DNA from: Candidatus Magnetaquicoccus inordinatus
Lineage (GTDB): Bacteria; Pseudomonadota; Magnetococcia; Magnetococcales; Magnetaquicoccaceae
Direction: 5' to 3'
Length of the DNA stretch: 60,906 nucleotides
NCBI RefSeq assembly: GCF_004217665.1
Contig: NZ_RXIU01000001.1
Coordinates: forward strand, 1 to 60,906
Below the pieces are notes generated by a model, which was not told the origin of the DNA, searched no databases, and was given only the letters and a program-made list of their open reading frames with translations. Positions within the stretch are counted from its first letter, which is position 1. The number at the start of each line of letters is the position of its first letter. Both the position numbers and the translations under genes were made by a program. Shown piece after piece: positions 17,801 to 47,753 of this stretch.

Positions 17801-20800
17801 TTCCCGGTTGGCTACGCTGGCCAGTACGCAATGGGATGGCGTGCTTTCGTTACAGTTGCAAGCCTTGGCCGACACGCAGTTGGATGGCCTTGCTTCGGCT
17901 ACGTTGACCAACTTGGCCGACACCCAATTGAATGGATTGACCTCCGTACAGCTCTCTGGTTTGGCGGCGACCCAGTTGAATGGTTTGTCCTCACTGCAGT
18001 TGCAGGGGTTGGCGGATACGCAACTGAATGGATCTACCTCTGTTCAACTCACCTCTTTGGCCAATACCCAGTTGGATGGTTTGAATTCCCTGCAGTTGCA
18101 GGCGCTGGCCGATACCCAGTTGGACGGTTTGGCTTCCACACAGTTGAAGGTGTTGGCCGATACCCAGTTGGATGGTTTGACTTCGTTACAACTGCAGGGA
18201 TTGGCCGTTTCGCAACTGAATGGATTGCAGTCACTGCAATTGAGTGCTCTTGCCGACTCCCAATTGAATGGTCTGACCTCTGGCCAACTGACTGATTTGG
18301 CCAACACCCAATTGAATGGCTTGTATTCGTTGGCGCTTGCCTCCTTGGCAGACACCCAGTTGGATGGTCTGTTGGAGACGCAGGTTACCGCTTTGGCGGA
18401 TACGCAGTTGAATGGTTTGACCTCGGTGCAGGTGACCAGTCTGAATGATACCCAGTTGGATGGTTTAAGTTCTGTCCAATTGAGTGGTTTGGTTGATACC
18501 CAGTTGAATGGTCTGCTCTCTTCGCAACTGCAGGCGTTGGAAAATTCGCAGTTGAATGGGCTCACATCGCTTTCTCTTGGCTCTTTGGCCGATACACAGT
18601 TGAATTCGCTGTTGTCGACGCAACTGACCGAGTTGGCCGATACGCAGTTGAATGGTTTGACTTCACTGCAATTGACTGGGTTGGCCAACAGCCAGTTGGA
18701 TGCTTTCCTGTCGCAGCAATTGAAGGGGTTGGCCGATACGCAGTTGGATGGTTTGACCTCTGCGCAGATGAAGGCTCTTGTTGATACCCAGTTGGATGGT
18801 TTGCGTTCGGTGCAGTTGACTGGCTTGGCCGATACGCAGTTGAATGGCCTGACTTCCATGCAGTTGACAGCATTGGCAGATAGCCAGTTGGATGGTTTGG
18901 CCTCGCTGCAGTTGACCGGTTTGGCAGACAGCCAATTGAATGCTTTGATCTCCAGCCAGTTGACAGCTTTGGTGAGCAGCCAGTTGGATGGCTTGACCTC
19001 GCTGCAACTGAAGGCGCTGGCTGACACGCAATTGGATGGTTTGACCTCCGTACAACTGACTGGTTTGGCAGATACCCAGTTCAATGGTTTGAGTTCAGCC
19101 CATTTGAAGGGGTTGGCCGATACGCAGTTGAACGGTCTTACCTCAACGGCGTTGACCTCATTGGCCGATACGCAGTTGGATGCTGCCTTGTCGTTGCAGT
19201 TGCAAGCTTTGGCTGATACCCAACTGAACGGCTTGTTGTCGATGCAACTGAGTGGTCTTACTGACACGCAGTTGGATGGTGTGACTTCAACGCAATTGAC
19301 CGCTCTTGCGGATACCCAGTTGAATGGGTTGCGTTCCGGTTTGTTGAAGGCTCTGGCCGATACCCAGTTGGATGGTTTGGGCTCTTTGTCGTTGACTGGT
19401 TTGGCGGATACCCAGTTGAATGGGTTACGCTCTGTACAGTTGCAGAGTTTGGCTGATACGCAGCTCAACGGGTTTGTTTCCTTGCAATTGACCTCCATGG
19501 CCGACACGCAGTTGGATGGTTTGACATCTCTGCAATTGACCGCTTTGGCGGATACGCAGTTGAATGGTTTGACCTCTGGGCGGTTGCAGGGGTTGGCTGG
19601 AACGCAGTTGGATGGCCTGGTCTCGTTGCAATTGTCCGCTTTGGCCGACACGCAGTTGGATGGCGTGAGCTCGGCGCAATTGGCTGGTTTGGCAGATACG
19701 CAGCTTAATGGGCTCTATTCGCTGGCGTTGAGCGGGCTGGTTAGTTCGCAGTTGAAAGGTTTGACATCGTCGCAATTGACGGCATTGGCGGACACACAAT
19801 TGAATGGTCTGACTTCAGATCAGTTGTCTGCATTGGCTGCTACACAACTGAATGGTCTGACCTCCACGCAGTTGACGGCCCTTGCTGACAGCCAGTTGAA
19901 TGGTTTGAGCTCGGCGCAACTGGCCGGATTGACAGATACACAACTGAATGGTTTGCTCAGTTTGAGTCTGGTGGCATTGGCTGACTCACAGTTGAATGGT
20001 TTACCCTCGGTGCAGTTGGCAGCTCTTGCCGATAGCCAGTTGAATGCGTTGACTTCGCTGCAACTGCAAGGTTTGGCCAATTCTCAGTTGAACGGTCTGC
20101 AATCATTGCAATTGCAGGGGTTGGCCGACACGCAGTTGGATGGCATGACCTCTTCGCAACTGGCTGGTTTGTCGGCTACGCAGTTGAATGGTTTGTACTC
20201 ATTGCGTTTGAGCAACTTTGTGGACACCCAGTTGAACGGTTTGACCTCAACACAGGTCTCCACACTGGCTGACACGCAGTTGGATGCCTTGACTTCAGCG
20301 ATGTTGAGTGCGCTGGCGGTGACGCAGCTTGAAGGTTTGACCTCTGTTCAATTGACTGGTTTGGCGGATACCCAGTTGAATGGGTTGAGTTCTGTACAGT
20401 TGCAGAGCTTGGTTGGCACCCAGTTAAACGGTTTGACCTCTACGCAACTCAAGGCGATCGCGGATACCCAGTTGGATGGGTTGGCATCGGCGCAGTTGAC
20501 AACCTTGGCGGATACCCAGCTCAATGGTTTAACCTCGGTCAGCCTGGGGCAGTTGGATAATTCGCAGTTGGGTGGTTTGACCTCAGTTCAACTCTCTGGC
20601 TTGGCGGATACGCAGTTGGATGGTTTGGGCACAGGGCAGTTGCTCAGTTTGTCTGCGACACAGTTGGATGGTTTGACCTCCGTTCAATTGTCTGGTTTGG
20701 CCGATACGCAGTTGGATGCTTTGACCTCATCGCATATCGGGCAGCTCACGGCAGTGCAATTGAATGGTTTGACCTCTGTGGCGCTGGGTAATTTGGCCAA

Positions 20801-23800
20801 TACGCAGTTGCGTGGTATGAACTCTGCCTTGTTGAGTAGCCTGGCGGATACCCAGTTGAATGGTTTGGGTTCGTTGCAGTTTGCCTCTTTTGCCAGCACG
20901 ATGTTGGATGGTCTGGGTTCCTTGCAACTGAAGGGCTTGGCGGATACCCAGCTCAACGGCATGACTTCCATGCAGTTGAAGGGTTTGGCCTCAACGCAAC
21001 TGGATGGTTTGTCTTCGCTTTCGCTCAGTGCGTTGGCTGATACACAACTGGTTGGGTTGTTGTCGACGCAGTTGTCCACTTTGGCTGATACACAACTGGA
21101 CGGTTTGCAATCGCTCTCCTTGTCGCAATTGAGCACAGCACAGTTGAATGGTTTGCAATCGCTGCAGCTTAATGCGCTTACGGATACCCAATTGGATGGC
21201 TTGAGCTCTCTGCATGTGGCGAGCTTGGCCAATACCCAGTTGAATGGTCTGCTCTCGTTGCGTTTGGGCGGCTTGGCTGATACCCAATTGAACGGCATGA
21301 GCTATGGCCAGTTGTCGGTCTTGGCGGACAGCCAACTGAATGGTTTAGGTTCGTTGCAACTGAGCGGTTTGGCAAATACCCAGTTGACCGGTTTAAGTTC
21401 AGCACATTTGGCTGGTTTGGCCGATACCCAACTGAATGGTTTGGGCTCGCTGCAGTTGGATTCGCTGAGTTCAGCACAACTCAATGGCATGTCTTCATCG
21501 CAATTGTCGGGTTTGGCAGATAGCCAGTTGAATGGTCTCTCTTCCGACCTCTTGCTTGGCTTTGCCAATACCCAGTTGGATGGATTGGCCTCCTTGGCCT
21601 TGATGGGTTTGGCCGATACCCAGTTGCTTGGCATGACCTCCCTGCAATTGGTTGCTTTGGCCGACACGCAGTTGAATGGTTTGACCTCGACGCAGTTGAC
21701 AGCTTTGAAAGATTCGCAGTTGGCTGGTTTGGGTTCTCTGCAGTTGAATGCACTGGCTGATACCCAGTTGAATGGTATGACCTCGATGCAGTTGAAGGGG
21801 TTGGCCAATACCCAGTTGGATGGTCTGGTATCGCTGGTTCTTGGCAGCTTGGCCGATACCCAACTGGATAATGTGACCTCTGCCCAGTTGGCAGCTTTGG
21901 CTGATACCCAACTCAATGGTCTCACTTCCGTTCAATTGGCATCGTTGTCCAATGCACAACTGGATGGGTTTAATTCGCTACGTTTGCTTGGTTTTGCCGA
22001 TACACAGCTCAACGGCTTGGGCTCCCTGCAGTTGGCTGGTTTGGTGTCGACTCAATTGAGTGGCATCTACTCATTGCGTCTGCAGGCGTTGGCGGATACC
22101 CAGTTGAATGGGTTGGTCTCAACGCAGTTGCAGCGCTTGAGCAACACGCAGTTGGATGGTTTGACCTCGACGCAATTGACCTCGTTGGCGACTACGCAGT
22201 GGAAAGGTTTGAGCTCCGCCCAACTGTTGGGGTTGGCGGATACCCAGTTGAATGGTTTGACCTCGACACAACTGACCGCCATGGCTGGTACCCAGTTGAA
22301 TGGTTTGACCTCAGCGCGTCTGCTTGCTTTGGCTGATACGCAATTGAATGGTTTGAGCTCCTCTGCAGTGGTTGGATTGGCCTCTACACAACTGGATGGT
22401 TTGACCTCTCTCGCGTTGCAAGGGCTGGCAGATACACAATTAAATGGTTTAAGCAGTGCACAGGTGTCCACCTTGGCGGACACGCAGTGGAATGGCTTGC
22501 TGTCGATGCAGTTGACCGGGTTGGCGGCGACACAATTGGCTGGTTTGTCTTCAGCACGCTTGATGGTGTTGGCTGATACCCAACTGAATGGTCTGAGTTC
22601 GGGACAACTGAAAGTTCTCTCGACGGCATTGTTGGCTGGTTTGACTTCGGATCAATTGTCAGGATTGGCTGATACCCAATTGAACGGGTTGCAGTCAGCA
22701 CAGTTGCAGGCGCTCAAGAGCACCCAGTTGGATGGATTGGGTTCACTCTCGCTGAGTGGTTTGGCTGGTAGCCAGTTGGCTGGTTTGACTTCTGCGCAAT
22801 TGGCAGTTTTGGCCGATACACAACTGAATGGTTTGTCGAGCAGCTTGGCGGCTTCACTCTCTGCCGCACAATTGAATGGCTTGTCCTCGGCGCAGTTGAC
22901 TGGCCTGGTGGATACACAACTGAATGGCTTGGCGACCGAAGGGTTGCGTTCGTTGGCGGCTACCCAACTGAACGGTTTGTACTCCTTGGCATTGAACAGC
23001 TTGGCAGATACGCAATTGAATGGTTTGTTGTCTGCACAAGTGAACAGTTTGGCCGATACGCAACTGGATGGGCTGACTTCGGCGCAGTTGCAGGGGTTGG
23101 CAGGCAGCCAGTTGGATGGTTTGACTTCAGCGCATTTGCTGGCATTGGCGGATACCCAGCTTAATGGCTTGCGTTCCGGGCAGTTGTCTGGCTTGGTCAA
23201 TACCCAGCTCAATGGTCTGCAGTCGGTGCAGTTGACCAACTTGGCAGATAGCCAGTTGGATGGTTTGAGCTCGGCCCAGTTGGCAGCTTTGACGGATACC
23301 CAGTTGAATGGTTTGCAATCGCTGCAGCTTTCTGGATTGACAGCAGGGCAATTGGGTGGATTGAGTTCGGCTCTGCTCTCTGGTTTGGCGGATACGCAGT
23401 TGAATGGTATGAGCTCTACTCAACTGCAGAATCTGACGGTAGTGCAGTTGAATGGCCTCTCTTCGGTCAATCTGGGGTCGTTGGCCGATACCCAGTTGAA
23501 CGGTGTCACCTCGCAACAGTTGGCCAGTGTGGCGGATACGCAGTTGAATGGTTTGGCCAGTCTGCAGTTGACTGCATTGGCCGATAGCCAGTTGAACGGC
23601 TTGACCTCAGCACAGATGAGTGGCCTGGCCGATACCCAATTGAACGGTTTGAGTTCCGCGCAGTTGGCTGGTCTTTCCATGACCCAGTTGGATGGTGTGA
23701 CATCGACGCAACTGACTGGCTTGGCGGATACGCAACTGAATGGCCTGAGCTCGATGCAGATGCGTTCTTTGAGCTCTGCACAATTGGATGGTTTGCAATC

Positions 23801-26800
23801 GCTGCAATTGAGTGCGTTGGCCAATACCCAGTTGGCAGGGTTGACCTCTGCACAATGGGCAACTGTGGTTGATACGCAGTTGGATGGTATGGGCTCACTG
23901 GCCTTGACCGCACTGAGCGCAGTACAACTGCGGGGTCTTACCTCGGTGATGTTGGGCTCATTGGCAGAAACCCAATTGGATGGCTTGACCTCCACGCAAT
24001 TGAGTCTGTTGGCGGGTACCCAGTTGGCTGGTTTGGGCTCTCTGCAAATCAGCTCCCTGGCAGATACGCAGTGGAGTGGGCTGACCTCAGTTAAATTGGC
24101 TTCGTTGTCAACGGCAGTATTGAATAATTTTGACGATTCAATCTTTGGGCTCCTGGTCAATACCCAGTTGAATGGCTTGACCTCGGTACAGTTGGCTTCG
24201 TTGGCTGATACCCAGTTGGATGGTTTGGAGTCTGGACAGCTTAGCGGTTTGGCGGGTACACAGCTCAATGGCTTGACCTCGGCTCTGCTCACATCCCTTG
24301 CGGATACGCAGTTGAATGGTTTGAGCTCTGGGCAAATGGCGACACTGGCCGCCACACAATTGAATGGTTTGGGCTCGCTGCAGTTGAATGCTTTGGCCGA
24401 TACGCAATTGGTTGGTATCAGCTCTGCTGTTTTGGCCAGCTTGGCCGATACGCAACTCAATGGTCTGCTCAGTAGCGGTTTGGCTGGGATGACGGTAATG
24501 CAGTTGAATGGTTTGAGCTCTAGCCAGTTGGCTGGATTGGCAGATACCCAGTTGAATGGACTGAGCTCGGTACAACTGACCTCGTTGGCAGGGACACAAT
24601 TGAATGGTTTGCAGTCATTGAGTCTCACCGGTCTGGCCGACACCCAGTTGAATGGTCTCACCTCTGGGCAATTGAGCGGCTTGGCCGATACCCAGTTGAA
24701 TGGTTTTGTTTCGCTGCAGTTGACTGCGTTGGCGGATAGCCAATTGGGAGGCTTGACTTCTGTTCAGTTGACTGCGTTGGCGGATACGCAGTTGAATGGT
24801 CTTAGCTCCGTGCAGTTGACAGGTTTGGATGCCACCCAGTTGGATGGTTTGGGTTCGCTGCAATTGACCGGTTTGGCTGATACGCAGTTGAATGGCCTCT
24901 TCTCTTCACAATTGAAGTTGTTGTCTGCCACGCAATTGAATGGGTTGACTTCGTTGCAGTTGTCTGCTCTGGCTGATTCGCAGTTGGATAGCTTGAGCAC
25001 TGCACAATTGGCCACGTTGGTGGATACCCAGTTGAATGGTTTGAGTTCGGTTCATTTGGCTGGTTTGGAGACAGTGCAGTTGACTGGTCTGAGCTCATTG
25101 TTGCTGCAATCGTTGGCGGATACGCAGTTGAATGGGGCGACCTCGACGCAGTTGAGCAAATTGGCTGCTACCCAGTTGAATGGCTTGTCTTCGTTGCAGC
25201 TCACCGGTTTGGCCGATACCCAGTTGAATGGCATAATCTCCACGCAGTTGGCTGGTTTGGCAGATTCCCAACTCAATGGTTTGCAGTCGCTGCAGTTGAG
25301 CGGGTTGGCAGCCACACAACTCTCCAGTTTGACATCGACTCTGGTGAGCAGTTTGGCCGATACCCAGTTGAACGGATTGAGTTCGGCACAATTGGCTAAA
25401 CTGTCGGTGGTGCAACTGAATGGTATCTCCTCAACCAATGTGACCAATCTGGCGGATACCCAGTTGAATGGTTTAACCTCCGCTCAATTGGCTTCCTTGG
25501 CTGACACGCAGTTGAACGGTCTGGGTTCGTTGCAGTTGCAAGGATTGGCCGATACGCAGTTGGATGGTTTGACCACTGCACAGTTGCTGGGACTGGCTGA
25601 TACCCAATTGAATGGTATGACTTCCACGCAGTTGACCGGTTTGTCAGCAGCACAACTGAAAGGTTTGACCTCGGCAGCATTGAGTGGCTTGGTCAATACG
25701 CAGTTTGACAGCTTTGCCTCGGCGCAGTTGAAGGGGTTGGTCAATACCCAATTGAATGGTTTGAGCTCGGTGACGTTGGGTTCCTTGGCAGGGACGCAGT
25801 TGGCTGGTCTGAGTTCAGCGCAATTTGCTGGATTTGCTGATACCCAGTTGAATGGGATGACCTCGGTGCAAATTGCTTCCTTGTCAGCGGCGCAGTTGCA
25901 TTCCTTGACCTCGGCAAGTTTGGCCGCTCTGGCGGATACCCAGTTGAATGGTTTGACCTCAGTACAATTGGCTGGCTTGGCTGTGACTCATTTGGATGGC
26001 TTGACTGCCACCAATATCACCAACTTGGCCGATACGCAGTTGAATGGTTTGCGTTCTGCCCAGTTGAAACTCTTGACCGATGCGCAATTGAATGGTTTGG
26101 CCTCTCTGCAACTGACCGGCTTGGAGGGTACACAGTTGAATGGTTTAACCTCCTCGCAATTGGCGGGCATGGCTGATACGCAGTTGAATGGGGTGACCTC
26201 TACGGCAATCGCCAGCTTGGCAGGTACACAGTTGGATGGTTTGACCTCTGACGCCATCGCTGGACTGGCGGATAGCCAGTTGGCGGGGTTGAATTCAGCG
26301 GCATTGGCGGCTCTGGTGGGTACGCAGTTGGATGGTTTGGGCTCTCTTGCTCTGGCCAGTCTGAGTACCTCGGCTTTGAACGGTCTGAACAGCCTGCAGT
26401 TCTATGGCTTGGCCGACACGCAATTGAATGGTTTGACTTCACTGCAGTTGAACAGCTTGGATAGTGCACAACTGGAGGGCTTCACCTCTAGTCGCATCGC
26501 AGCTTTGGCGGATTCCCAATTGAACGGTTTGCTTTCCAGTCAATTGAAGGAGTTGGTCAACACCCAGTTGGATGGTTTAAGCTCTCTGGGTCTGCAATCC
26601 TTGGCTGATACCCAGTTGAATGGTCTGGCGACAGCGCAATTGGGTGCCTTGGCTGACACGCAGTTGAATGGTTTGTTATCAATGCAGTTGACCGGTTTGG
26701 CCAGCACGCAGTTGGAAGGTTTGTCCTCTCTTGGTTTGCAGGGCTTGGCAGATTCCCAACTGAACGGTTTGACCTCCTTGCAGATGAAGGTGTTGAAGGG

Positions 26801-29800
26801 AACACAACTGGATGGTTTGTCGTCGGTGAGCCTGACCGGTTTGGCCGATACACAGTTGGATGGTATGCTCTCCGCACAGTTGAAGGGGTTGGCCGATACC
26901 CAGTTGAATGGTTTGACCTCGCTGCGCTTGGCAGGCTTGGTGGCGACACAGTTGGGTGGATTGACCAGCGTACAGTTGTCTGCCTTGGTGGATACACAAC
27001 TGAATGGTATGAGCTCTGCACAATTGGCAACCATGAACGGTACGCTCTTGAATGGCTTGACCAGTACGGTTTTGTCCTCGTTGGCGGATACCCAGTTGGA
27101 TGGTCTGACCTCGGCGCAATTGGCTGGTTTGGCGGGTACACAGTTGGATGGTTTGGGCTCGCTGCGCTTGTATGCTCTGGCGGCTACCCAGATGGCTGGT
27201 TTGACCTCCACGTTGCTCTCCACTTTGGCCGATACCCAGTTGAACAGTGTCACCTCGACAGCTCTTGGTCTGTTGACGACGACGCAGTTGGCTGGTTTGA
27301 CCTCGGTGCAGTTGACCAGCTTGGCCGATACCCAGTTGAACGGTATGTCTTCGCTGCAGTTTAGCGTCTTGAAGAACACGCAGTTGGCTGGCTTAAGCCT
27401 GAGTCAATATCTGGCGCTGGCGGATACACAACTGCAAGGGTTGTCCACCAACCGTTTGGGTACGCTGGCCTCGACAGTATTGGATTCGCTGTCATCGGTC
27501 ACCTTTGCGGCATTGTCTAATGGCCAATTGAACAGCTTGACCTCAAGCCAATTGACCACTCTGGCCAATACGCAGTTGAATGGCTTTACCTCCAGTCAGT
27601 TGGCTGGTTTGGCGGCTACACAGTTGAATGGCTTGGCCTCCTTGCAATTGACCAGTTTGGCCGATACGCAACTGGATGGTTTGATCTCGTCTCAGGTGGC
27701 TTCACTTGCTGGTACGCAGTTGGATGGTCTCTCTTCACTGATGTTGACTGGTTTGAGCAGTGCTCAGTTGAATGGCTTGGCAAGTGCACAACTGTCTGGT
27801 TTGGCCGATACGCAACTCAACGGTCTGGGATCTGATCAATTGGGTAGCCTGGCAGGAACGCAATTGAATGGATTGCTCTCCTTGAGCTTGCAGGCTCTGG
27901 CAGATACCCAGTTGAATGGTCTGATTTCGACGCAGATGGCTACTTTGGCCAATACTCAGTTGAACGGTTTGACCTCGTTGCAGTTGAATGCCTTGGTGGA
28001 TACCCAACTGGATGGTCTGCTCTCGGCGCAGATGGCTGGTTTGGCGGATACCCAGTTGAATGGTTTGACCTCTCTTGGACTGGCTTCGTTGGAGGTGACC
28101 CAACTGGCTGGTATGAGTTCAGCGCAGTTGACTGGTTTGGCAGATACGCAGTTGAACGGGTTGAGTTCGGCACAGTTGAATGGGCTGACCACAGCACAGT
28201 TGAATGGGTTGAGTGCTTCGCAACTGCAGGGGTTGGCTGATAGCCAGTTGAATGGGCTGAAGTCGGCACAGTTGAGTAGTCTTGCTGATACGCAGTTGGA
28301 TAATTTGGTCTCAACGCAGTTGAGTGGCTTGGCAGATAGCCAGTTGGATGGTTTGACCTCAGGACAATTGACTGGTTTGGTGGATGCGCAATTGAATGGG
28401 CTGATCTCAGGACAGTTGACTGGCCTGAATGAGAGCCAGTTGAATGGATTGTCCTCCTTGCAACTGACTGCTTTGGCCGATACGCAGTTGGATGGTTTGG
28501 CATCCACGCAAGTGAAGGGGTTGGCTGCTACCCAGTTGAATGGTTTACAGTCGCTCTCTCTGAATCAGTTGGCGAATACCCAGTTGGCTGGCTTGACCTC
28601 GGCTCAGGTGGCATCGTTGGCTGATACCCAGTTGAATGGTTTGACCTCTGCACAGTTGGCAGGTTTGGCCTCCGCACAGTTGGCAGGATTGAGCTCTGCA
28701 CAACTGCAAGGGCTTGCCGATACCCAATTGAATGGTCTGCTCAATAGCCAATTGAGTGCTTTGACCAATAATCAATTGCGTGGCCTGACTTCATTGCAAC
28801 TGACCGGCTTGGCTGATACCCAGCTCAATGGTTTGACCTCTGGTCAAATGGCCTCCCTGGTGGGGACGCAGTTGGATGGTTTGACCTCTATCCAGATGAG
28901 CTCTTTGGCCAGCACCCAATGGCGTGGATTGACCTCGGCTAAACTGAGCACGCTGGCGGATACGCAACTGGATGGTCTGACCTCCTCCTTGTTGGGTAGC
29001 ATGGCGGTCACGCAGTTGGATGGTTTGAGCTCCGCACGTTTGAGTCAGTTGGCGGATACCCAGTTGAACGGCTTGGTGAGCAAGCAGCTTGCTTCCCTGG
29101 TCGGTACGCAGTTGGATGGCTTGAGTTCACTGCAACTGAGCGGTTTGGTTGATACACAGTTGGCTGGCCTCTCTTCAAGCCTGTTGGGAACCCTGGCAGG
29201 AACGCAGTGGAATGGCTTGAGTTCTATACAGTTGACAGCTTTATCTTCGGCGCAATTGGCTGGACTAAGCTCGACCAATTTGGCTGGCTTGGCGGATACA
29301 CAACTGAATGGTCTGACCTCAACCTCTTTGGCTGGTTTCAGCTCAGCCCAGTTGAATGGTCTGTCGGCAGCACAGTTGACTTCGTTGGCAACAACGCAAT
29401 GGGATGGTGTGAAGTCGAGCCAACTGGCCAGCTTGGCTGCCACGCAGTTGGCTGGCATGACCTCATTGCAGTTGGTCAGCTTGGCGGATAGCCAATTGAG
29501 TGGTTTGACCTCTACCCTGCTCTCCAGCCTGGAAGATACACAGCTTGATGGCATGAGTTCGTTGCAGTTGCGTAAATTGACAGCGGTACAGTTGAATGGC
29601 TTGGCCGATGATCAATTGTCTGACTTGGCGGATACCCAAGTTGCGGGCTTGACCTCAGTACAACTGGCCTCCTTGGCGGCAACGCAGTGGAGCGGTATGA
29701 CCTCGACAGTTCTTGCAACTCTGGTAGCCACGCAGATGAATGGCTTCCTCTCTGCGCAGATGAGTGGATTGGTTGATACCCAGTTGGATGGCTTGACTTC

Positions 29801-31052
29801 GTCGATCCTGACAAATTTGGCGGCAACGCAATTGGCTGGTTTGGCTACTGGTCAGTTGCTTGGGTTGGCTGATACCCAACTCGATGGTCTGACTTCGCTG
29901 CAAATGAAGGCGTTAACATCCGTGCAACTGAATGGTTTAAGTTCGTTGCAACTGACTGGCTTGGCCAATACCCAATTGGTGAGTTTGACCTCCGCACAGT
30001 TGGGCAGCCTGGCAGGTACGCAGTTGGATGGCTTGCAATCGACGCAGTTGGCTGCTTTGAATGATTCTCAGTTGGGTGGATTGACCTCCACACAGTTGAG
30101 TCAGTTGGCGGTGACCCAGTTGGCTGGTGTAACCTCTCTGCAATTCAAGGGCTTGGCTGGAACGCAGTTGGATGGCCTGAGTTCAACAGCTCTGAGCAGC
30201 ATGGTTGATGGTCCGTTGAATGGATTGACCTCGGCGCAGTTGAAGACTTTGGCTGGAACGCAGTTGGATGGCATCTCTTCGTCGCAGATCAGCTCCTTCT
30301 CGACCACACAACTGAGAGGTTTGACCTCGGCACAGTTGAGCACCTGGGCGGATACGCAGTTGAATGGCATGACCTCTGAGCAGTTGCGTGGATTTGCTAT
30401 CACCCAGTGGGATGCTTTGTCCTCAGTACAGTTGGCCAGCTTTGCTGATACGCAGTTGTCTGGTTTGACTTCGGCACAGATGAAGAACCTGAAGGATACC
30501 CAGTTGAATGGTCTCACTTCAGCACAGTTGGGTATCTTGACCACAACGCAGTTGGTGGGTCTTACCTCTGTTCAATTGGCTGGTTTGGCCAACACCCAGT
30601 TGGATGGCCTGACCTCTGGTCATTTGGCTGGCTTGAAGAGTACACAAATGCTTGGTTTGACCACGGCGCAATTGGTTGCTCTTGAGGATACGCAGTTGGA
30701 TGGTTTGACCACGACGCAGATTGTTGCGTTGACCACAACCCAGTTGGGTGGTTTGAGCTCCAGTCAGATCACTGGCTTGTCCACAGATCAGATTCGGGCT
30801 CTGACCAAGACAGCGGTTGTCTCCTTGTCTACAACGCAGATCGATGGTCTTACTGCTGTTGAGCTGCAGAATATGACCAAGACGCAGATGGCTGCCTTGA
30901 CCACCACGCAGTTGTCCAGTATGGACTCGGTACAAGCTGCGGCCTTCAGCACAAAGGCGGCATGGACAGCGGCTGGTATTACCACCACGCAGATCACCCA
31001 GTTGCACTCCGGTGGATTGGGTACGCCACTGGATACTTTGTGGAGCAGTTAG
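11805..31052 (+). CDS. Giant 16-residue-repeat protein, 6415 aa
   Basis: I do not recognise a named family. The ATG at 11805 follows AGAGGA with 8-nt spacing. Residues 1-37 are non-repetitive and Ser/Thr-rich (MATYTGSSSDLTSV). From about residue 38 to 6378 the protein is about 396 tandem copies of a 16-mer with consensus A-[D/x]-T-Q-L-[N/D]-G-L-[T/S]-S-x-Q-L-x-[G/A/S]-L, itself two 8-residue halves. The last ~37 residues are again unique (ends LDTLWSS). Leu recurs with 5-3-5-3 spacing, which does not suit a continuous alpha helix (8/2 residues per turn) but suits a beta-solenoid coil; that fold is inference. I saw no Cys, and charged residues, Pro and aromatics are scarce. There is no Sec signal, lipobox, LPXTG, RTX nonapeptide or transmembrane segment, so localisation is unknown. 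Neighbouring TPR glycosyltransferases suggest O-glycosylation of its Ser/Thr. A single uninterrupted frame over 19 kb argues that the gene is functional. It is probably a structural or surface fibre. Confidence 0.9.
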   Translation: MATYTGSSSDLTSVTDLQASNTPSTNQADFFGVSGALATTVIDGLQAAALSTATATQLNYLSSTQVTSLADTQLDGLTSTQLSGLANTQLDGLSSLQLTGLATTQLDGMISTRIASLADTQLDGLLSDQFSSLAATQFNGLYSLQLTALANTQLDGMTFDQLSSLAGSQLDGLGSLQLQALADTQLDGFTSVQLKTLANTQLDGLSSVQLSTFADSQWDGMTSVQLPGLADTQLNGVNSMQFSALVNTQLDGLRSLQIQALADTQLAGFASLQLKSLATTQFDGLNSTFLAAIAVTQLPGITSVQFSSLADTQLNGLTSASIGIMARTQLDGLTSGQLAALANTQLDGLTSDQITFLATTQWDGLRSLQLAAFADSQLDGMTSVQFKSLADSQWDGMTSVNLSLMENTQLDGLTSLQLSGLADSQLDGLLSDQLYYLANTQFNGLGSLQLSQLVDTQLDGLQGVQLLNLADTQLNGLTSLGLGSMEDTQLDSLASLQLQSLADTQLNGATSVQLSTLANSQLNGLTSGQLSALADSQLDGLSADHLNFLANTQYNGLQSLQLTGLATTQFTGLSSVHLQALADTQLNGLSATQMGVLASTQLDGLYSARITALADTQLDGLTSDQFASLANTQMDGLYSLQLNALADTQLDGLTSGQLTAYADTQLNGLRSLQLSGLASTQLDSMRSLQFAALADTQLNGLLSDQLTSLALTQFDGLGSLQLSGLADTQLNGLTADQMTSLANSQLDGLGSLQLAGLADTQLDGFVSLQLKALADTQLNGLTASNFGLFAGTQLDGMRSLQLTGLADTQLDGLGTDQFLSLANSQLDGLQSLQLSGLADTQLDGLASLQLKGLSDTQLNGLRSLQLSSLDGTQLAGLTSGHLTALADSQLNGLYSSQVSLLVNTQLNGLTSLQLTALADTQLDGLTTDQLKGFANTQLDGLASLQLLGLAASQLEGLTSGQLSVLADTQLNGLGSLGLKGLQDSQLNGLQSLQLNALADTQLDGMTSDQLAGVAGTQLDGLSSMQLSALADTQLIGLTSTLLKGLADTQLDGLGSVNLGTLDDTQLDGLRSGQLSGLADTQLNGLDDSQLATLANTQLDGLMSLSLQGLADTQLDGLQAAQVGGLATTQWDVLGSVSLTNLADTQLDGLVSTQLASLADTQLNGLASLQLDSLSDVQLNGLTSLQLQGLADTQLNGMSSVQFASLAATQLNGLLSVQLTALADTQLNGLTSTQFAGLADTQLNGLASLSLQGLADTQLNGLTSTQLADLADTQLNGLQLSQLAGLVATQLSGLNSMQLGLLADTQLNGLTSSALASLSNVQLNGLVSLQLASLADTQMNGLTSGQMGALADSQLDGLLSLMLGNLADTQLNGLLSTQLTALADTQLNGMSATQVAALSGTQLDGLSSVQLNGLADTQLNGLTSTLLKTLADTQLNGLGSVGLGSLADTQLDGLLSDQLTGLADTQLNGLTLAELASLSGTQLNGLYSMQLQGLADTQLNGLSSSSLASLAGTQLDGLSSVNLTNLADTQLNGLTSGQLSGLADTQLDGLGSLQLTGLAATQLNGLSSSQLNMLADTQLNGLSSAQLATLSGTQLDGMTSVNLTNLADTQLDGLTSALLKGLADTQLNGLSSVSLTNLADTQLDGMLSTQITGLADTQLNGLSNTELAALAATQLNGLNSMQLQGLADTQLNGLTSTQLASLSGTQLDGLNSLSLSSLADTQLDGLSTVLLRDLADTQLNGLGSLQLSGLAATQLNGLLSDQLSGLADTQLNGLNSLHLASLAGTQLDGMSSVQLAGLSDTQLNGLTSAVLKTLADTQLNGLESLRLNGLADTQLNGLTSSQMLDLADTQLNGLLSTQLLGLVGTQLDGMSSMQLQGLADTQMRGMGSLQLKSLATTQLDGLYSLALQVLADSQLDALATVQLKSLADTQLNGLLSLQLSGLAGSQLDGLTSSQLTALADTQLNGMTSDVLAGLAGTQLDGLTSLQLQALADTQLNGLLASRLATLASTQWDGVLSLQLQALADTQLDGLASATLTNLADTQLNGLTSVQLSGLAATQLNGLSSLQLQGLADTQLNGSTSVQLTSLANTQLDGLNSLQLQALADTQLDGLASTQLKVLADTQLDGLTSLQLQGLAVSQLNGLQSLQLSALADSQLNGLTSGQLTDLANTQLNGLYSLALASLADTQLDGLLETQVTALADTQLNGLTSVQVTSLNDTQLDGLSSVQLSGLVDTQLNGLLSSQLQALENSQLNGLTSLSLGSLADTQLNSLLSTQLTELADTQLNGLTSLQLTGLANSQLDAFLSQQLKGLADTQLDGLTSAQMKALVDTQLDGLRSVQLTGLADTQLNGLTSMQLTALADSQLDGLASLQLTGLADSQLNALISSQLTALVSSQLDGLTSLQLKALADTQLDGLTSVQLTGLADTQFNGLSSAHLKGLADTQLNGLTSTALTSLADTQLDAALSLQLQALADTQLNGLLSMQLSGLTDTQLDGVTSTQLTALADTQLNGLRSGLLKALADTQLDGLGSLSLTGLADTQLNGLRSVQLQSLADTQLNGFVSLQLTSMADTQLDGLTSLQLTALADTQLNGLTSGRLQGLAGTQLDGLVSLQLSALADTQLDGVSSAQLAGLADTQLNGLYSLALSGLVSSQLKGLTSSQLTALADTQLNGLTSDQLSALAATQLNGLTSTQLTALADSQLNGLSSAQLAGLTDTQLNGLLSLSLVALADSQLNGLPSVQLAALADSQLNALTSLQLQGLANSQLNGLQSLQLQGLADTQLDGMTSSQLAGLSATQLNGLYSLRLSNFVDTQLNGLTSTQVSTLADTQLDALTSAMLSALAVTQLEGLTSVQLTGLADTQLNGLSSVQLQSLVGTQLNGLTSTQLKAIADTQLDGLASAQLTTLADTQLNGLTSVSLGQLDNSQLGGLTSVQLSGLADTQLDGLGTGQLLSLSATQLDGLTSVQLSGLADTQLDALTSSHIGQLTAVQLNGLTSVALGNLANTQLRGMNSALLSSLADTQLNGLGSLQFASFASTMLDGLGSLQLKGLADTQLNGMTSMQLKGLASTQLDGLSSLSLSALADTQLVGLLSTQLSTLADTQLDGLQSLSLSQLSTAQLNGLQSLQLNALTDTQLDGLSSLHVASLANTQLNGLLSLRLGGLADTQLNGMSYGQLSVLADSQLNGLGSLQLSGLANTQLTGLSSAHLAGLADTQLNGLGSLQLDSLSSAQLNGMSSSQLSGLADSQLNGLSSDLLLGFANTQLDGLASLALMGLADTQLLGMTSLQLVALADTQLNGLTSTQLTALKDSQLAGLGSLQLNALADTQLNGMTSMQLKGLANTQLDGLVSLVLGSLADTQLDNVTSAQLAALADTQLNGLTSVQLASLSNAQLDGFNSLRLLGFADTQLNGLGSLQLAGLVSTQLSGIYSLRLQALADTQLNGLVSTQLQRLSNTQLDGLTSTQLTSLATTQWKGLSSAQLLGLADTQLNGLTSTQLTAMAGTQLNGLTSARLLALADTQLNGLSSSAVVGLASTQLDGLTSLALQGLADTQLNGLSSAQVSTLADTQWNGLLSMQLTGLAATQLAGLSSARLMVLADTQLNGLSSGQLKVLSTALLAGLTSDQLSGLADTQLNGLQSAQLQALKSTQLDGLGSLSLSGLAGSQLAGLTSAQLAVLADTQLNGLSSSLAASLSAAQLNGLSSAQLTGLVDTQLNGLATEGLRSLAATQLNGLYSLALNSLADTQLNGLLSAQVNSLADTQLDGLTSAQLQGLAGSQLDGLTSAHLLALADTQLNGLRSGQLSGLVNTQLNGLQSVQLTNLADSQLDGLSSAQLAALTDTQLNGLQSLQLSGLTAGQLGGLSSALLSGLADTQLNGMSSTQLQNLTVVQLNGLSSVNLGSLADTQLNGVTSQQLASVADTQLNGLASLQLTALADSQLNGLTSAQMSGLADTQLNGLSSAQLAGLSMTQLDGVTSTQLTGLADTQLNGLSSMQMRSLSSAQLDGLQSLQLSALANTQLAGLTSAQWATVVDTQLDGMGSLALTALSAVQLRGLTSVMLGSLAETQLDGLTSTQLSLLAGTQLAGLGSLQISSLADTQWSGLTSVKLASLSTAVLNNFDDSIFGLLVNTQLNGLTSVQLASLADTQLDGLESGQLSGLAGTQLNGLTSALLTSLADTQLNGLSSGQMATLAATQLNGLGSLQLNALADTQLVGISSAVLASLADTQLNGLLSSGLAGMTVMQLNGLSSSQLAGLADTQLNGLSSVQLTSLAGTQLNGLQSLSLTGLADTQLNGLTSGQLSGLADTQLNGFVSLQLTALADSQLGGLTSVQLTALADTQLNGLSSVQLTGLDATQLDGLGSLQLTGLADTQLNGLFSSQLKLLSATQLNGLTSLQLSALADSQLDSLSTAQLATLVDTQLNGLSSVHLAGLETVQLTGLSSLLLQSLADTQLNGATSTQLSKLAATQLNGLSSLQLTGLADTQLNGIISTQLAGLADSQLNGLQSLQLSGLAATQLSSLTSTLVSSLADTQLNGLSSAQLAKLSVVQLNGISSTNVTNLADTQLNGLTSAQLASLADTQLNGLGSLQLQGLADTQLDGLTTAQLLGLADTQLNGMTSTQLTGLSAAQLKGLTSAALSGLVNTQFDSFASAQLKGLVNTQLNGLSSVTLGSLAGTQLAGLSSAQFAGFADTQLNGMTSVQIASLSAAQLHSLTSASLAALADTQLNGLTSVQLAGLAVTHLDGLTATNITNLADTQLNGLRSAQLKLLTDAQLNGLASLQLTGLEGTQLNGLTSSQLAGMADTQLNGVTSTAIASLAGTQLDGLTSDAIAGLADSQLAGLNSAALAALVGTQLDGLGSLALASLSTSALNGLNSLQFYGLADTQLNGLTSLQLNSLDSAQLEGFTSSRIAALADSQLNGLLSSQLKELVNTQLDGLSSLGLQSLADTQLNGLATAQLGALADTQLNGLLSMQLTGLASTQLEGLSSLGLQGLADSQLNGLTSLQMKVLKGTQLDGLSSVSLTGLADTQLDGMLSAQLKGLADTQLNGLTSLRLAGLVATQLGGLTSVQLSALVDTQLNGMSSAQLATMNGTLLNGLTSTVLSSLADTQLDGLTSAQLAGLAGTQLDGLGSLRLYALAATQMAGLTSTLLSTLADTQLNSVTSTALGLLTTTQLAGLTSVQLTSLADTQLNGMSSLQFSVLKNTQLAGLSLSQYLALADTQLQGLSTNRLGTLASTVLDSLSSVTFAALSNGQLNSLTSSQLTTLANTQLNGFTSSQLAGLAATQLNGLASLQLTSLADTQLDGLISSQVASLAGTQLDGLSSLMLTGLSSAQLNGLASAQLSGLADTQLNGLGSDQLGSLAGTQLNGLLSLSLQALADTQLNGLISTQMATLANTQLNGLTSLQLNALVDTQLDGLLSAQMAGLADTQLNGLTSLGLASLEVTQLAGMSSAQLTGLADTQLNGLSSAQLNGLTTAQLNGLSASQLQGLADSQLNGLKSAQLSSLADTQLDNLVSTQLSGLADSQLDGLTSGQLTGLVDAQLNGLISGQLTGLNESQLNGLSSLQLTALADTQLDGLASTQVKGLAATQLNGLQSLSLNQLANTQLAGLTSAQVASLADTQLNGLTSAQLAGLASAQLAGLSSAQLQGLADTQLNGLLNSQLSALTNNQLRGLTSLQLTGLADTQLNGLTSGQMASLVGTQLDGLTSIQMSSLASTQWRGLTSAKLSTLADTQLDGLTSSLLGSMAVTQLDGLSSARLSQLADTQLNGLVSKQLASLVGTQLDGLSSLQLSGLVDTQLAGLSSSLLGTLAGTQWNGLSSIQLTALSSAQLAGLSSTNLAGLADTQLNGLTSTSLAGFSSAQLNGLSAAQLTSLATTQWDGVKSSQLASLAATQLAGMTSLQLVSLADSQLSGLTSTLLSSLEDTQLDGMSSLQLRKLTAVQLNGLADDQLSDLADTQVAGLTSVQLASLAATQWSGMTSTVLATLVATQMNGFLSAQMSGLVDTQLDGLTSSILTNLAATQLAGLATGQLLGLADTQLDGLTSLQMKALTSVQLNGLSSLQLTGLANTQLVSLTSAQLGSLAGTQLDGLQSTQLAALNDSQLGGLTSTQLSQLAVTQLAGVTSLQFKGLAGTQLDGLSSTALSSMVDGPLNGLTSAQLKTLAGTQLDGISSSQISSFSTTQLRGLTSAQLSTWADTQLNGMTSEQLRGFAITQWDALSSVQLASFADTQLSGLTSAQMKNLKDTQLNGLTSAQLGILTTTQLVGLTSVQLAGLANTQLDGLTSGHLAGLKSTQMLGLTTAQLVALEDTQLDGLTTTQIVALTTTQLGGLSSSQITGLSTDQIRALTKTAVVSLSTTQIDGLTAVELQNMTKTQMAALTTTQLSSMDSVQAAAFSTKAAWTAAGITTTQITQLHSGGLGTPLDTLWSS
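11916..30938 (+). repeat. Tandem 48-bp repeat array, about 396 units, coding
   Basis: Units are exactly 48 bp. At every 240-bp step (five units) from 12121 to 30841, 79 positions checked, the sequence begins with the same point of the unit: the second base of the Leu codon in TQL, usually followed by GAT/AAT-GGN. Hence there is no net insertion or deletion over 390 units. Units vary freely at synonymous positions (CAG/CAA, CTG/TTG, ACC/ACG, GGT/GGC), so this is not a recently amplified satellite. Confidence 0.95.
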
Positions 31053-31146: not shown

Positions 31147-31242
31147 TTTGGGGAATCGGTCAGATCTGTGGTTTTGCCAGTCAACTGATACCAATTGGCC
31201 TTCGTTCAGGTAAAAAATCTGCCTAAAAATTTTTGAGGAGCT

Positions 31243-31364
31243 CCAGGAGGAGATCATCTCCTCCTGGCGGAGGATTGGAAGCGGAGCCTCCAAGATCTTG
31301 ATTTTGCTTTTTAGCGGCGCTTTATCCACAAGCCAAGGCGTTTTTTGCCTTGGCGCAGCGCCGC
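31243..31364. repeat. Composite hairpin element (core palindrome plus nested stem)
   Basis: 31243-31267 is a 25-bp palindrome identical to the cores at 93-117 and 47564-47588 except for the central base. At 31314-31364 an outer stem (gcggcgct / agcgccgc) encloses an inner stem (gccaaggc at 31332-31339 / gccttggc at 31347-31354) with a T-rich loop. The nested part has the same plan as 34477-34528 but different inner-arm bases. The rest of the 31147-31409 spacer holds no gene. Confidence 0.75.
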
Positions 31365-31409
31365 AATGTATTTCTACTCATTTGCTTGCAAATTGGTATG
31401 AGGTGAGGA

Positions 31410-33818
31410 ATGGCCCGCAAAAAGAGCGAACGCTTGGCGAACAAGGGGAGCAACCGTACAGAGCAAGCAACGGTTCCGGCACGATCTGATCCGTTATTGT
31501 TGCCAGGGAGCAACCGTACAGAGCAAGCAACAGTTCCGGCACGATCTGATCCATTATTGTTGCCAGGGAGCAACCGTACAGAGCAGGCAACGGTTCATAG
31601 CTCTCCCGATTCGTTATTGTTGCAACTGCGCCAATGGTATGCCGAAGGTAAACTGCAGGAGTGTTTACAGGCAGCGGAAGCGGCATTGCAGCAGGGGCTG
31701 GAGGATGCCGCTCTATTCAATCTGGCGGCAGTGTGTCATGTTCGTTTGGGGCAAAGTGAAAAAGCCCAGGAGTATTGGCAGAAGGCTCTTGGTCTGCGTC
31801 CGGATTATGCGGAAGTGCATAATAATTTGGGTAATCTGCATTTGCAACAAAACCGCTGGAGTGCAGCAGAAGAGTGTTACCGTCAAGCTTTATTGGTACG
31901 GCCTGCCTATGGCGATGCTTTGAACAATCTCGGTAATCTGCTGCGCAAACAAAACAAGGAGGAGGAGGCGGAAGCGCTATACCGTCAGGCATTGCAACTG
32001 GATCAGCAACTGATTCCTGTCGAAATCTATTGCAATTTTGGCTCTTTGCTTCTGGAGCAGAAGCGTTTCAGCCAGGCAGAATCCTGCTATCAGCAGGCTT
32101 TGCAGCGTTTTCCACAGGCGCCAAACGCCCGTTTTGGTTTGGCTTCGGTTTGGCATCAACGGGGCAATTGGCAAGAGGCTGAAGCGGAATATCGACAATT
32201 ATTGCAGCAGCAAGCGGATCATCAGGGTGCACTCTTTGCTTTGGCTAAGCTTCTGCAACAGCAAAAGGATTATGTGCAAGCAGAGGCTCTCTATCAGCAA
32301 TTATTAATCATCCATCCGGCGATGGCAGAGGCGCACAACCAATGGGCCACCTTGCTCAAGGAGATGAGCCGTTATGCAGAAGCAGAAGAGCATTATCGGT
32401 CAGCGTTGCGCTTGCAAGGTAATGATGCAACCTATCATAACAATTTGGCAACGCTGCTGCAGACGCTAAAACGTTATGCGGAAGCGGAGAGCGCTTACCG
32501 GCAGGCGCTGCTTCTCTCAGGGGGGCGGGTGGAAATTTATAACAATCTCGCTGTTTTGTTGCAAGAGATGGGTCGAGGAGAGGAGGCGGAACAATATTAT
32601 CGCCAAGCTTTGCAACAGGATGCGCAGTATGCGGTAGCCTATTGCAATTTGGGATCTTTGTTGTTTGAACAGAAGAGAGCCGTAGAGGCTGAAGCAAGCT
32701 ATCGTGATGCCTTGCGCTTGCAGCCGGACTATGCCGAGGCGTTGAACAATTTGGGCAACTTGTTGAAAGAGTTGCGACGCTACAAGGAGGCCGAGGAGTG
32801 TTATCGTCGGGCCTTGTTGTTGCAGCCCGACTATCGGCAGGCAGAGTGGAATTTAGCTCTGTTGCTGCTGTTGCTGGGACGTTTTCACGAAGGATGGCCC
32901 TGCTATGAGGTGCGTTGGCAGATCAATAGTGCAGAATGGCGACAAGTGGAGGATTTGCCGTTTGTGCGTTGGCAGGGGGAGTCATTGGTTGGCAAATCGA
33001 TCATCGTGGCTCCAGAGCAGGGCTATGGTGATCAGATTCAATTTTGTCGCTATGTACCGTTATTGAAGGAGCGTGGAGCCACTTGGGTGACGGTGCTCTG
33101 TTCATTGTTGCTCAAGCCATTGTTTGCCACATTACCAGGGGTGGACCAGGTTTTGGCCTATGAGCAGGTCAGTCTCTATCCTCGGCATGATTATTGGGTG
33201 AGTTTGTTGTCATTGCCAATTTGTTTTGCCACTACCCTGCAGAACATGGTCAACCAATTACCCTATTTGCAGGCCACTGCAGAGCGCATCAGTTGGTGGC
33301 GCCCGTTGTTGCCTCGGCGTGGTCTGCGGGTTGGTCTGTTTTGGCGCGGGCGGGCAACGCCACGCGATGTCAATCGCTCTCTGCCAGATATGACTTTGTT
33401 GGCACCTTTATGGTCAGTAAAAGGGGTTAGCTTTATCAGTTTGCAAAAGGGTGAGGGTGAGGAGGAGGCCAGTCATGCCCCTGCCCAGCAGCCCCTGTTG
33501 CCGTTGGGAGCGATGATTCGGGACTTTGCCGATACGGCAGCCATTGTTGCCCAATTGGATCTGTTGATTACAGTGGATTCTGCAGTGGCACATGTGGCTG
33601 GAGCTTTGGGAAAACCCTGCTGGCTGTTATTGTCGGCCTGGGATAGTGACTGGCGCTGGTTGCTGGAGCGGGATGATTCGCCCTGGTATCCTGGTGTGCT
33701 GCGTTTGTTTCGCCAGCGTCAAATAGATGATTGGGCAGCGCTGCTTGCGGAAGTGGCAACAGAGTTGGCAGTTGTGGTCAGCAAGAGGCAGGAGAAAGGA
33801 GAGAGCAATCATGGGTGA
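31410..33818 (+). CDS. TPR protein with C-terminal GT9-like (heptosyltransferase-fold) glycosyltransferase domain, 802 aa
   Basis: Residues 13-72 are three near-identical 20-residue units beginning GSNRTEQATV. A long TPR array follows (about residues 75-500, repeated NLG...L...ALRLQPDYAEA pattern). The C-terminal domain (about 500-795) resembles the TPR-linked glycosyltransferase family related to ADP-heptose:LPS heptosyltransferases: it has IIVAPEQGYGDQIQFCRYVPLL, LRVGLFWRGR, ISLQKGEGEEE, and near the end DLLITVDSAVAHVAGALGKP, the usual nucleotide-sugar region. The ATG at 31410 follows AGGTGAGGA directly. The stop overlaps the next gene by 8 bp. There is no signal peptide. It lies next to the giant Ser/Thr-rich protein and may modify it, which is inference; the acceptor could equally be a lipid-linked glycan. 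Confidence 0.88.
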   Translation: MARKKSERLANKGSNRTEQATVPARSDPLLLPGSNRTEQATVPARSDPLLLPGSNRTEQATVHSSPDSLLLQLRQWYAEGKLQECLQAAEAALQQGLEDAALFNLAAVCHVRLGQSEKAQEYWQKALGLRPDYAEVHNNLGNLHLQQNRWSAAEECYRQALLVRPAYGDALNNLGNLLRKQNKEEEAEALYRQALQLDQQLIPVEIYCNFGSLLLEQKRFSQAESCYQQALQRFPQAPNARFGLASVWHQRGNWQEAEAEYRQLLQQQADHQGALFALAKLLQQQKDYVQAEALYQQLLIIHPAMAEAHNQWATLLKEMSRYAEAEEHYRSALRLQGNDATYHNNLATLLQTLKRYAEAESAYRQALLLSGGRVEIYNNLAVLLQEMGRGEEAEQYYRQALQQDAQYAVAYCNLGSLLFEQKRAVEAEASYRDALRLQPDYAEALNNLGNLLKELRRYKEAEECYRRALLLQPDYRQAEWNLALLLLLLGRFHEGWPCYEVRWQINSAEWRQVEDLPFVRWQGESLVGKSIIVAPEQGYGDQIQFCRYVPLLKERGATWVTVLCSLLLKPLFATLPGVDQVLAYEQVSLYPRHDYWVSLLSLPICFATTLQNMVNQLPYLQATAERISWWRPLLPRRGLRVGLFWRGRATPRDVNRSLPDMTLLAPLWSVKGVSFISLQKGEGEEEASHAPAQQPLLPLGAMIRDFADTAAIVAQLDLLITVDSAVAHVAGALGKPCWLLLSAWDSDWRWLLERDDSPWYPGVLRLFRQRQIDDWAALLAEVATELAVVVSKRQEKGESNHG
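31446..31625 (+). repeat. Three 60-bp in-frame direct repeats at the start of the TPR-GT gene
   Basis: Copies at 31446-31505, 31506-31565 and 31566-31625 begin gggagcaaccgtacagagca. Copies 1 and 2 differ at only a few bases; copy 3 diverges in its second half. Near-identity at the DNA level indicates recent duplication or slippage and possible length variation of the N-terminal 20-residue linker. Confidence 0.9.
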
Positions 33819-34353
33819 ACTGTATGCAGAGATCAATCCAAAGGTAGAGGAATTTATCAAACAGCAGCATCTCTTTTTTGTGGCGACCGCGCCTGTGCAA
33901 GGGCGGATCAATCTTTCGCCCAAGGGGATTGATACCTTTCGGGTGATCGATGCGCGTTGTGTGGCATTTCTGAATTTGACCGGCAGTGCCAATGAGACGG
34001 CGGCGCATTTGTTAAGCGACAACAGAATTACCTTTATGTTTTGCAGTTTTACGGCGCAACCATGGATTGTGCGACTCTATGGTCAGGGGAGGGTCTATCA
34101 TGCCAGAGACAGCGAATGGTCGCATTGGTTGGCCCATTTTCCCGATTTGCCGGGAAAACGACAGGTGATAGTGGCGGATATTGATCTGGTACACAGCTCC
34201 TGTGGTTTTGGTGTTCCTTTGATGGATTTTCAAGGTGAGCGCCAACAGATGTTGCGTTGGGCAGAAAAAAAGGGCGAGGAGGGGATCAGGCGCTATTGGG
34301 AGGAAAATAATCTGCTCAGTTTGGATGGAGTGCCTACCCAGATTTTACCTTGA
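33811..34353 (+). CDS. Pyridoxamine 5'-phosphate oxidase-family flavoprotein, 180 aa
   Basis: FMN-binding split-barrel protein of the PNPOx-like family. Typical stretches are GELYAEINPKVEEFIKQQHL at the N-terminus, INLSPKGIDTFRVID, FLNLTGSANETAAHL, ITFMFCSF, and the C-terminal CGFGVPLMDFQGER...WAEKKGEEG. The start at 33811 is chosen because AAAGGAGAG (33796-33804) precedes it and it begins the conserved domain; it overlaps the upstream TPR-GT stop by 8 bp. Family members bind FMN or F420, but substrates are mostly unknown. I do not infer true PNPOx (pdxH) activity. Confidence 0.85.
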   Translation: MGELYAEINPKVEEFIKQQHLFFVATAPVQGRINLSPKGIDTFRVIDARCVAFLNLTGSANETAAHLLSDNRITFMFCSFTAQPWIVRLYGQGRVYHARDSEWSHWLAHFPDLPGKRQVIVADIDLVHSSCGFGVPLMDFQGERQQMLRWAEKKGEEGIRRYWEENNLLSLDGVPTQILP

Positions 34354-34396
34354 TAGCCATTTGTGGTAACTATTCACACCCAAAACAACTGCGGGT

Positions 34397-34442
34397 CCAG
34401 GGAGGGCACCTCCCTGGCTGGGTCCAGGGATGGAATCCCTGG
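34397..34442. repeat. Pair of adjacent perfect hairpins
   Basis: 34397-34417 has 9-bp arms (ccagggagg / cctccctgg) and a 3-bp loop; 34424-34442 has 8-bp arms (ccagggat / atccctgg) and a 3-bp loop. Both begin after ggtcc, as the core palindromes at 93-117 and 47564-47588 do, so this looks like a diverged relative. It starts 43 bp after the PNPOx-like stop and may also end that transcript. Confidence 0.7.
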
Positions 34443-34460
34443 GATTTTGCTCTTAATTTT

Positions 34461-34799
34461 TTAATCGTTTGCTTTTGGCGCGCTTTACACACCAAGCCGA
34501 CGCGCTTTTTGCGTCGGCGCAGCGCGCCTAATGGAAGCAAGCTGTGCGGATTGGCGCGCCTATTTGCGCCAATTCGCACAGCATCCCCATGGGGGTAGAG
34601 CTGGCGAGCCAGCACAAACCTGAATAGTTACTAATCTTTTGCCTTTGGCGCGCTTTACACACCAAGCCGACGCGCTTTTTGCGTCGGTTTAAGCGCCCAA
34701 TGGAAGCAAGCTGTGCGGATTGGCGCGCCTATTTGCGCCAATTCGCACAGCATCCCCATGGGGGTAGAGCTGGCGAGCCAGCACGAACCTGAATAGTTA
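34461..34799. repeat. 170-bp direct repeat, two copies in tandem
   Basis: Copy 1 is 34461-34630 and copy 2 is 34631-34799; they are almost identical, with one net base missing in copy 2. Each contains a run of palindromes. In copy 1 an outer stem ggcgcgct (34477-34484) / agcgcgcc (34521-34528) surrounds an inner ccgacgc (34497-34503) / gcgtcgg (34511-34517). Then follow attggcgc...gcgccaat, ccccatgggg and gctggcgagccagc. The outer stem is altered in copy 2. The rest of the 34354-34926 spacer has no gene that I can support. Confidence 0.85.
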
Positions 34800-34926
34800 C
34801 TTGGTATGAAACAACCCCTGCACTGTGTTGGTGCAGAGGGCAAAGGCATCGGTAATTTGCGATCTCTTGGGTTGCCTGTCTCTGTTTTATGCTTCAGCAG
34901 TTCTATGGTATGGGTGGGGGTAGTGC

Positions 34927-47425: not shown

Positions 47426-47530
47426 GGTGGGTGCTCGTCAACCATACAGGCAATTGGAGATTATTCTATTTCTTTGCAAACTGTATCATACCATGCCCCA
47501 GCAGCAAAGCTCCTGCAAGATCAGGGCAAT

Positions 47531-47607
47531 CGCATTTGAAAATCAGAAAATTATTATGGAGGTCCAGGAGGAGATTATCTCCTCCTGGTGGGTGCAGGGC
47601 AAAGCCC
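47531..47607. repeat. Dispersed palindromic element, copy 2 (inverted partner of 74-150)
   Basis: Matches the reverse complement of 74-150 at 75 of 77 positions, the two mismatches being adjacent. The core palindrome is 47564-47588 (12-bp arms, one-base centre). It sits about 105 bp upstream of the DUF523 start codon. Confidence 0.85.
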
Positions 47608-47689: not shown

Positions 47690-47753
47690 GCTCTGGGAGG
47701 GCGGACGCCCGACATGCACCGTTTCGCTTGTGGCAACAGTGAGGAAATTGGCA

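Follow-up and report, generated by a model that had tools for sequence, protein, structure and literature searches.

Nested hairpins with co-varying arms lie within probable MITEs of Candidatus Magnetaquicoccus inordinatus

In this study, a stretch of 60,906 nucleotides of Candidatus Magnetaquicoccus inordinatus, hereafter called the window, was analysed. One open reading frame of 6415 amino acids, whose C-terminal 1350 amino acids match ALTTAQ repeats, occupies positions 11805-31052 and precedes a TPR gene, which is also preceded by a similar giant repeat ORF in the relatives G004 and G006. Three direct repeats of 60 bp, with identities of 97% and 78%, lie at the start of the TPR gene (31446-31625) and keep the frame. 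The initial annotation of the window flagged two nested hairpins, at 31314-31364 and 34477-34528, whose inner arms are unlike each other and yet pair perfectly, and it proposed selection on folding, as in REP/BIME units or structured RNA. The positions and the pairing were both correct. The first hairpin lies in an element (family C) that reaches to within a few bases of the probable ribosome-binding site in front of the TPR gene and is thus now the leader of that gene, and the second lies in an element (family A) between the PNPOx gene and an aminotransferase-like gene (Table 1).

Table 1. Coordinates of the annotated features, in positions of the window.
Feature	Position	Strand	Basis or remark
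Family C element, approximate ends	31181-31406	+	about 226 bp; TIR-like arms 31181-31199 and 31388-31406, 84% complementary
Hairpin 1, family C	31243-31267	+	repeat search and fold
Hairpin 2, family C, plus start of T-rich spacer (approximate)	31272-31300	+	weak fold
Nested hairpin of the initial annotation, family C	31314-31364	+	fold; R1 67.3 bits
Family A MITE, complete	34366-34631	+	266 bp (family median 259 bp); both TIRs
Left TIR, GTAACTATTCA	34366-34376	+	ends as in IS66-family elements L113, L114 and L110
Hairpin 1, CCAGGGAGG-GCA-CCTCCCTGG	34397-34417	+	fold; found in families A-D
Hairpin 2, terminator-like, then T-rich spacer	34423-34443	+	terminator-site count
T-rich spacer	34444-34476	+	length varies among copies and relatives
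Nested hairpin of the initial annotation, family A	34477-34528	+	fold; R1 78.3 bits
Hairpin 3, 17-bp stem	34541-34582	+	fold z -7.3; co-varies among own-genome copies
Right TIR, TGAATAGTTAC	34621-34631	+	sequence
Partial tandem second copy	34632-34800	+	nested hairpin 34647-34697, TTAA sub-variant; identical right TIR at end
Family B MITE	47522-47768	+	ISAs1-type TIR CAGGGCAATCGCATTTG; 10-bp target duplication with one mismatch
Family B nested hairpin	47620-47664	+	model without any B sequence: 33.6 bits, E 1.4e-4

The RNA folds of the two flagged hairpins were -31.7 kcal/mol (z -5.0) for the family C copy and -31.5 kcal/mol (z -4.3) for the family A copy, and in each case 0 of 200 shuffles was equally stable. 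The window has two occurrences of the combined nested-hairpin pattern, compared with none in 100 shuffles, and two members beyond the flagged pair were found, one in the partial tandem copy and one in family B. Twelve copies of the nested hairpin served as seed for a covariance model (52 positions, 16 pairs), and the scores of the flagged hairpins under covariance model R1 are given in Table 1. In the whole genome (4.14 Mb), there were at least 138 matches at E<=1, approximately 129 of them at E<=0.001, these counts being lower bounds from the 150 candidates scored. The genome-wide model that the initial annotation had suggested thus yielded more than a hundred family members, and the objection that further members might be lacking or might not pair does not hold. 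BLAST with the stretch 34440-34620 returned at least about 40 near-full-length copies in the own genome with 88-95% identity. Beyond this genome, matches at E<=0.01 were found in 13 of the 150 genomes drawn from the phylum, all of them Magnetococcales, the order of the window. A scan of named genomes gave three matches outside Magnetococcales, each single, which is close to the number that we estimate to be expected.

From member to member, changes in one hairpin arm are matched by changes in the other, which keeps the fold intact despite sequence change. In the 12 seed sequences, both sides were changed at 9 of the 16 pairs while 100% of cells paired, and there were 24 double-changed cells compared with 6.6 expected, a score that no shuffle attained. 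In 79 distinct sequences, whose alignment had been fitted to the structure, 171 double-changed cells were counted compared with 41.6 in shuffles; covariation figures of this kind, including those for hairpin 3 below, are inflated by the relatedness of the sequences. The co-variation that had been read from two copies was therefore borne out in a family dispersed through the genome, with arm changes matched far above shuffled and slid controls. In the internal loop, the 5' strand positions TTT and AA and the 3' strand positions GCA are nearly invariant, while the inner-stem pairs vary. Hairpin 3 of family A behaved similarly in own-genome copies, with 18 mismatched cells compared with 55.5 in shuffles; the conservation of the inner stem in family A was left out as evidence because the hairpin model had itself picked many of the copies. 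Rare stem mutations (singletons) in family A were C>T in 6 and G>A in 8 cases and showed no preference for preserving G-U pairs, and so speak against strong current selection on the RNA of each copy, in a wobble test that is weak because the alignment mixes two hairpin-2 subtypes.

The ends of the elements point to transposition. The own genome holds at least 51 oriented full-length family A copies with both flanks and with the ends GTAACTATTCA...TGAATAGTTAC. An exact 8-bp TSD was present in 21 of the 51 and one with a single mismatch in 8 more, compared with no exact direct repeat of 4-7, 9 or 10 bp at any of them. No clear target duplication was seen at the window's own family A and family C copies. 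Elements of the IS66 family typically have ends beginning with GTAA and produce 8-bp duplications. Complete IS66-family elements of 1.72-1.74 kb were found in three relatives (L113, L114 and L110), with ends GTAACTATTCA[CG]CACC, an NF033517 match of E 1e-87, and exact 8-bp TSDs at two of the three. From these identical ends and 8-bp TSDs, family A is taken as an IS66-type MITE. In the own draft genome of 546 contigs, no IS66-family transposase was found; the gene may have been lost or may be missing from the draft. Because the elements carry only ends that such a transposase recognises, family A would have been mobilised in trans by an IS66-family transposase. Family A also contains a GTAG-tagged mini-hairpin (GTAG-A-GCTGGC-GA-GCCAGC) at 34595-34613, and the 28-bp unit that holds it is tandemly repeated in some copies (L011, L003).

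Empty sites in relatives agree with this origin. In five same-genus relatives (G001-G005), the distance from the stop of PNPOx to a conserved motif of the aminotransferase-like gene was 41-109 bp, compared with 588 bp here, and the MITE together with the partial tandem copy (34366-34800) makes up most of the extra DNA, an insertion that none of these 5 relatives has between the two genes. In the nearest relative, G004, no 31181-31406 element is present between the TPR gene and the giant gene with ALTTAQ repeats, where the same terminator is kept without any nested hairpin. Since the gaps of the relatives are without the elements, both flagged copies are best read as lineage-specific insertions. 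For family C itself, the genome yielded a single near-complete relative (L032, with 89% identity across 188 bases) and a partial one (L035); its ends matched none of the transposons found in this analysis, and no recognisable target duplication was seen.

The same hairpin also travels with other ends. A model lacking B sequences gave 14 more family B nested-hairpin matches in addition to that in the window, with B scores of 30-38 bits. The TIR of family B had 162 matches in the genome compared with 0 for the reversed pattern, and its target duplications are 9-10 bp. A complete 1220-bp ISAs1-family element in G021 (L395) has the ends of family B. By the same reasoning as for family A, which rests on the ends that family B carries, an ISAs1-family transposase would have mobilised it in trans. 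An IS4 parent had been assigned to family B at first, since IS4 transposase ends follow B hairpins, and was ruled out once the IS4 element proved to be an insertion within the hairpin, with ISAs1 as the parent. In several species, such an IS4-family element (ends CATA[TA]GCG[CT]TAAC) has inserted itself at the border of the hairpin palindrome, for example as GGGCAAAGCCC followed directly by the element; insertions of this kind were seen at L041, L044, L379, L376 and other loci, and L379 encodes 403 aa (NF033592, E 2.6e-44).

Relatives carry further forms of the cassette. In G006 and G001, copies of two arm types are arranged as inverted pairs, and mixed forms were observed at L065 (G004) and L063 (G006), the latter with an IS66-like left end and an ISAs1-like right end, which may be a hybrid element. 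In the related cassettes of G006 and G025, IS66 or ISAs1 ends are mostly absent, and at the G006 elements no target duplication was detected (29 of 200 shuffles were as good). We believe that the two flagged hairpins are very probably one structural module within short non-autonomous DNA transposons (MITEs), and the best reading is a structured MITE cassette that rides on several unrelated transposases and is tolerated at the 3' ends of genes. The interpretation of the initial annotation is partly supported.

With simple longest-ORF gene calls, the elements lay in 33 convergent, 31 co-directional and 5 divergent gaps. Because convergent and divergent gaps are equal in number on a circular replicon, the deficit in divergent gaps is probably not due to chance, and it fits both the removal of harmful insertions and a role at 3' ends. 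The first idea about this context, a directional terminator at gene 3' ends, was ruled out because the elements in co-directional gaps had no orientation bias (15 compared with 16). Hairpin 2 of family A (34423-34443) is followed by ATTTTGCTCT, and the region holds 2 terminator-like sites where 1.3 are expected by chance. In Rfam, no family reached the curated threshold; the best was RT-15, with 28.6 bits against a threshold of 82, and its E value of 0.0005 became 0.046 when the stretch was searched alone, so it was taken as chance. We propose that a self-folding, possibly terminating element would do little harm when transcribed from either side; the hairpins may be kept because of this low harm, and the copies would then survive at gene 3' ends. 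The hairpins may also act as weak terminators or protect the 3' ends of mRNA. Such an RNA role is possible, and we lean slightly against it.

How the hairpins are maintained is the part of the reading that has competitors: the candidates are RNA-level selection, selection acting through transposition, and template switching. Selection on folding, as proposed in the initial annotation, is plausible, and correction of one arm from the other would yield an identical pattern. In template switching, a change in one arm of a near-palindrome is copied onto the other, which is mutation and not selection, so this explanation competes with the selection part only and not with the identity as MITEs. Block changes on both arms of single copies, such as ACTGTACCCA/TGGGTACAGC, and the presence of one-sided intermediates speak for it, and the rare mutations show no sign of selection against G-U-breaking changes; it leaves unexplained the constancy of the internal loop, in different families and species, amid changing stems. 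We regard template switching as a real competitor and still a rather unlikely one. Alternatively, selection may act on a structured RNA with a host function (as a 3' UTR element, a terminator or an sRNA) that acquired the transposon ends as vehicles, with stems co-varying around a conserved TTT..AA / GCA internal loop recognised by a protein or an RNA. The nearly invariant loop amid changing inner-stem pairs speaks for a host function, as do the presence of one module in families whose ends are unrelated, its occurrence without such ends in G025 and G006, and the T-rich sequence after hairpin 2. It is opposed by the even orientation in co-directional gaps, the rare stem mutations without G-U bias, the Rfam search without a match at threshold and the terminator-like sites hardly above chance, and we consider it unlikely, a little more so than template switching. 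A further reading, to us as improbable as template switching, makes the cassette the selected unit in its own right: a structured module whose internal loop is fixed and whose stems co-vary freely, passed between unrelated vehicles (IS66-type, ISAs1-type and others) across the order and used as a landing pad by an IS4-family element.

The REP/BIME reading, in which palindromes are moved by a RAYT tyrosine transposase, did not stand. The elements are extragenic, hairpin-forming, high in copy number and mostly outside divergent gaps, they form inverted pairs in G001 and G006, and family A includes the GTAG-tagged mini-hairpin, all of which would suit REPs. However, the superfamilies of REPs are defined by their tags (PMC3733652), and the nested hairpin is preceded by T-rich sequence without a GTAG or CGTC tag, while the units are bounded by DDE-type TIRs with TSDs. 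The single Y1 transposase of the own genome (G000:C147:1824-2126) has an internal stop and no flanking inverted repeats or hairpins. The search for a RAYT, which the initial annotation had also suggested for this genome, found none flanked by hairpins among about 30 Y1 loci of Magnetococcales, where the one weak nested-hairpin match lay more than 1 kb from the gene. The missing tag, the DDE-type ends and Y1 loci without adjoining hairpins led us to reject this reading as highly improbable, and the structured MITE cassette remains our preferred one.

MITEs, IS66 elements and REPs are well-known kinds of sequence (PMC10969869, PMC3733652, PMC1525189). Bacterial IS-derived MITEs (reviewed in PMC10969869), for example MITEAba12 (PMC6382973) and QMITE2 of Coxiella (PMC5896051), have no coding capacity, a length of about 260 bp, TIRs, target duplications, high copy number and stable transcript hairpins, and they often lie in a 3' UTR or intergenic region; the elements described here are alike in these respects. 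In contrast to known MITEs, one structured cassette is here common to unrelated ends (IS66-type, ISAs1-type and an unassigned type), and the hairpin arms co-vary between families. The review of bacterial MITEs (PMC10969869) does not mention IS66. REP/BIME sequences with RAYTs (PMC3733652, PMC2817692) are similarly extragenic, number hundreds of hairpins with compensated stem changes, form inverted dimers, as seen here in relatives, and serve as landing sites for IS elements, and insertion of an IS4-family element into REPs is known for ISRm22 (PMC1525189). Unlike REP/BIME, the hairpin here is nested and not single, carries no tag and no link to a RAYT, and lies in units with TIRs and TSDs. The single-ORF IS66 family (PF03050/NF033517) shares the ends beginning with GTAA, the 8-bp duplications and, in the complete elements of relatives, the very same ends. 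In contrast, a transposase gene is lacking from the window element, whose hairpins are absent from the three complete IS66 elements. In the open-access literature searched for Magnetococcales repeats, these elements were not described, and the novelty of the element family is accordingly provisional.

The species-specific copies, the parent IS elements with the same ends and the empty sites together form a natural series, in which compensatory change is visible inside recent copies. This series lets one test how hairpins are maintained in bacterial repeats, through RNA selection, transposition or template switching. It also presents one structured cargo on several transposase systems in a little-studied magnetotactic order.
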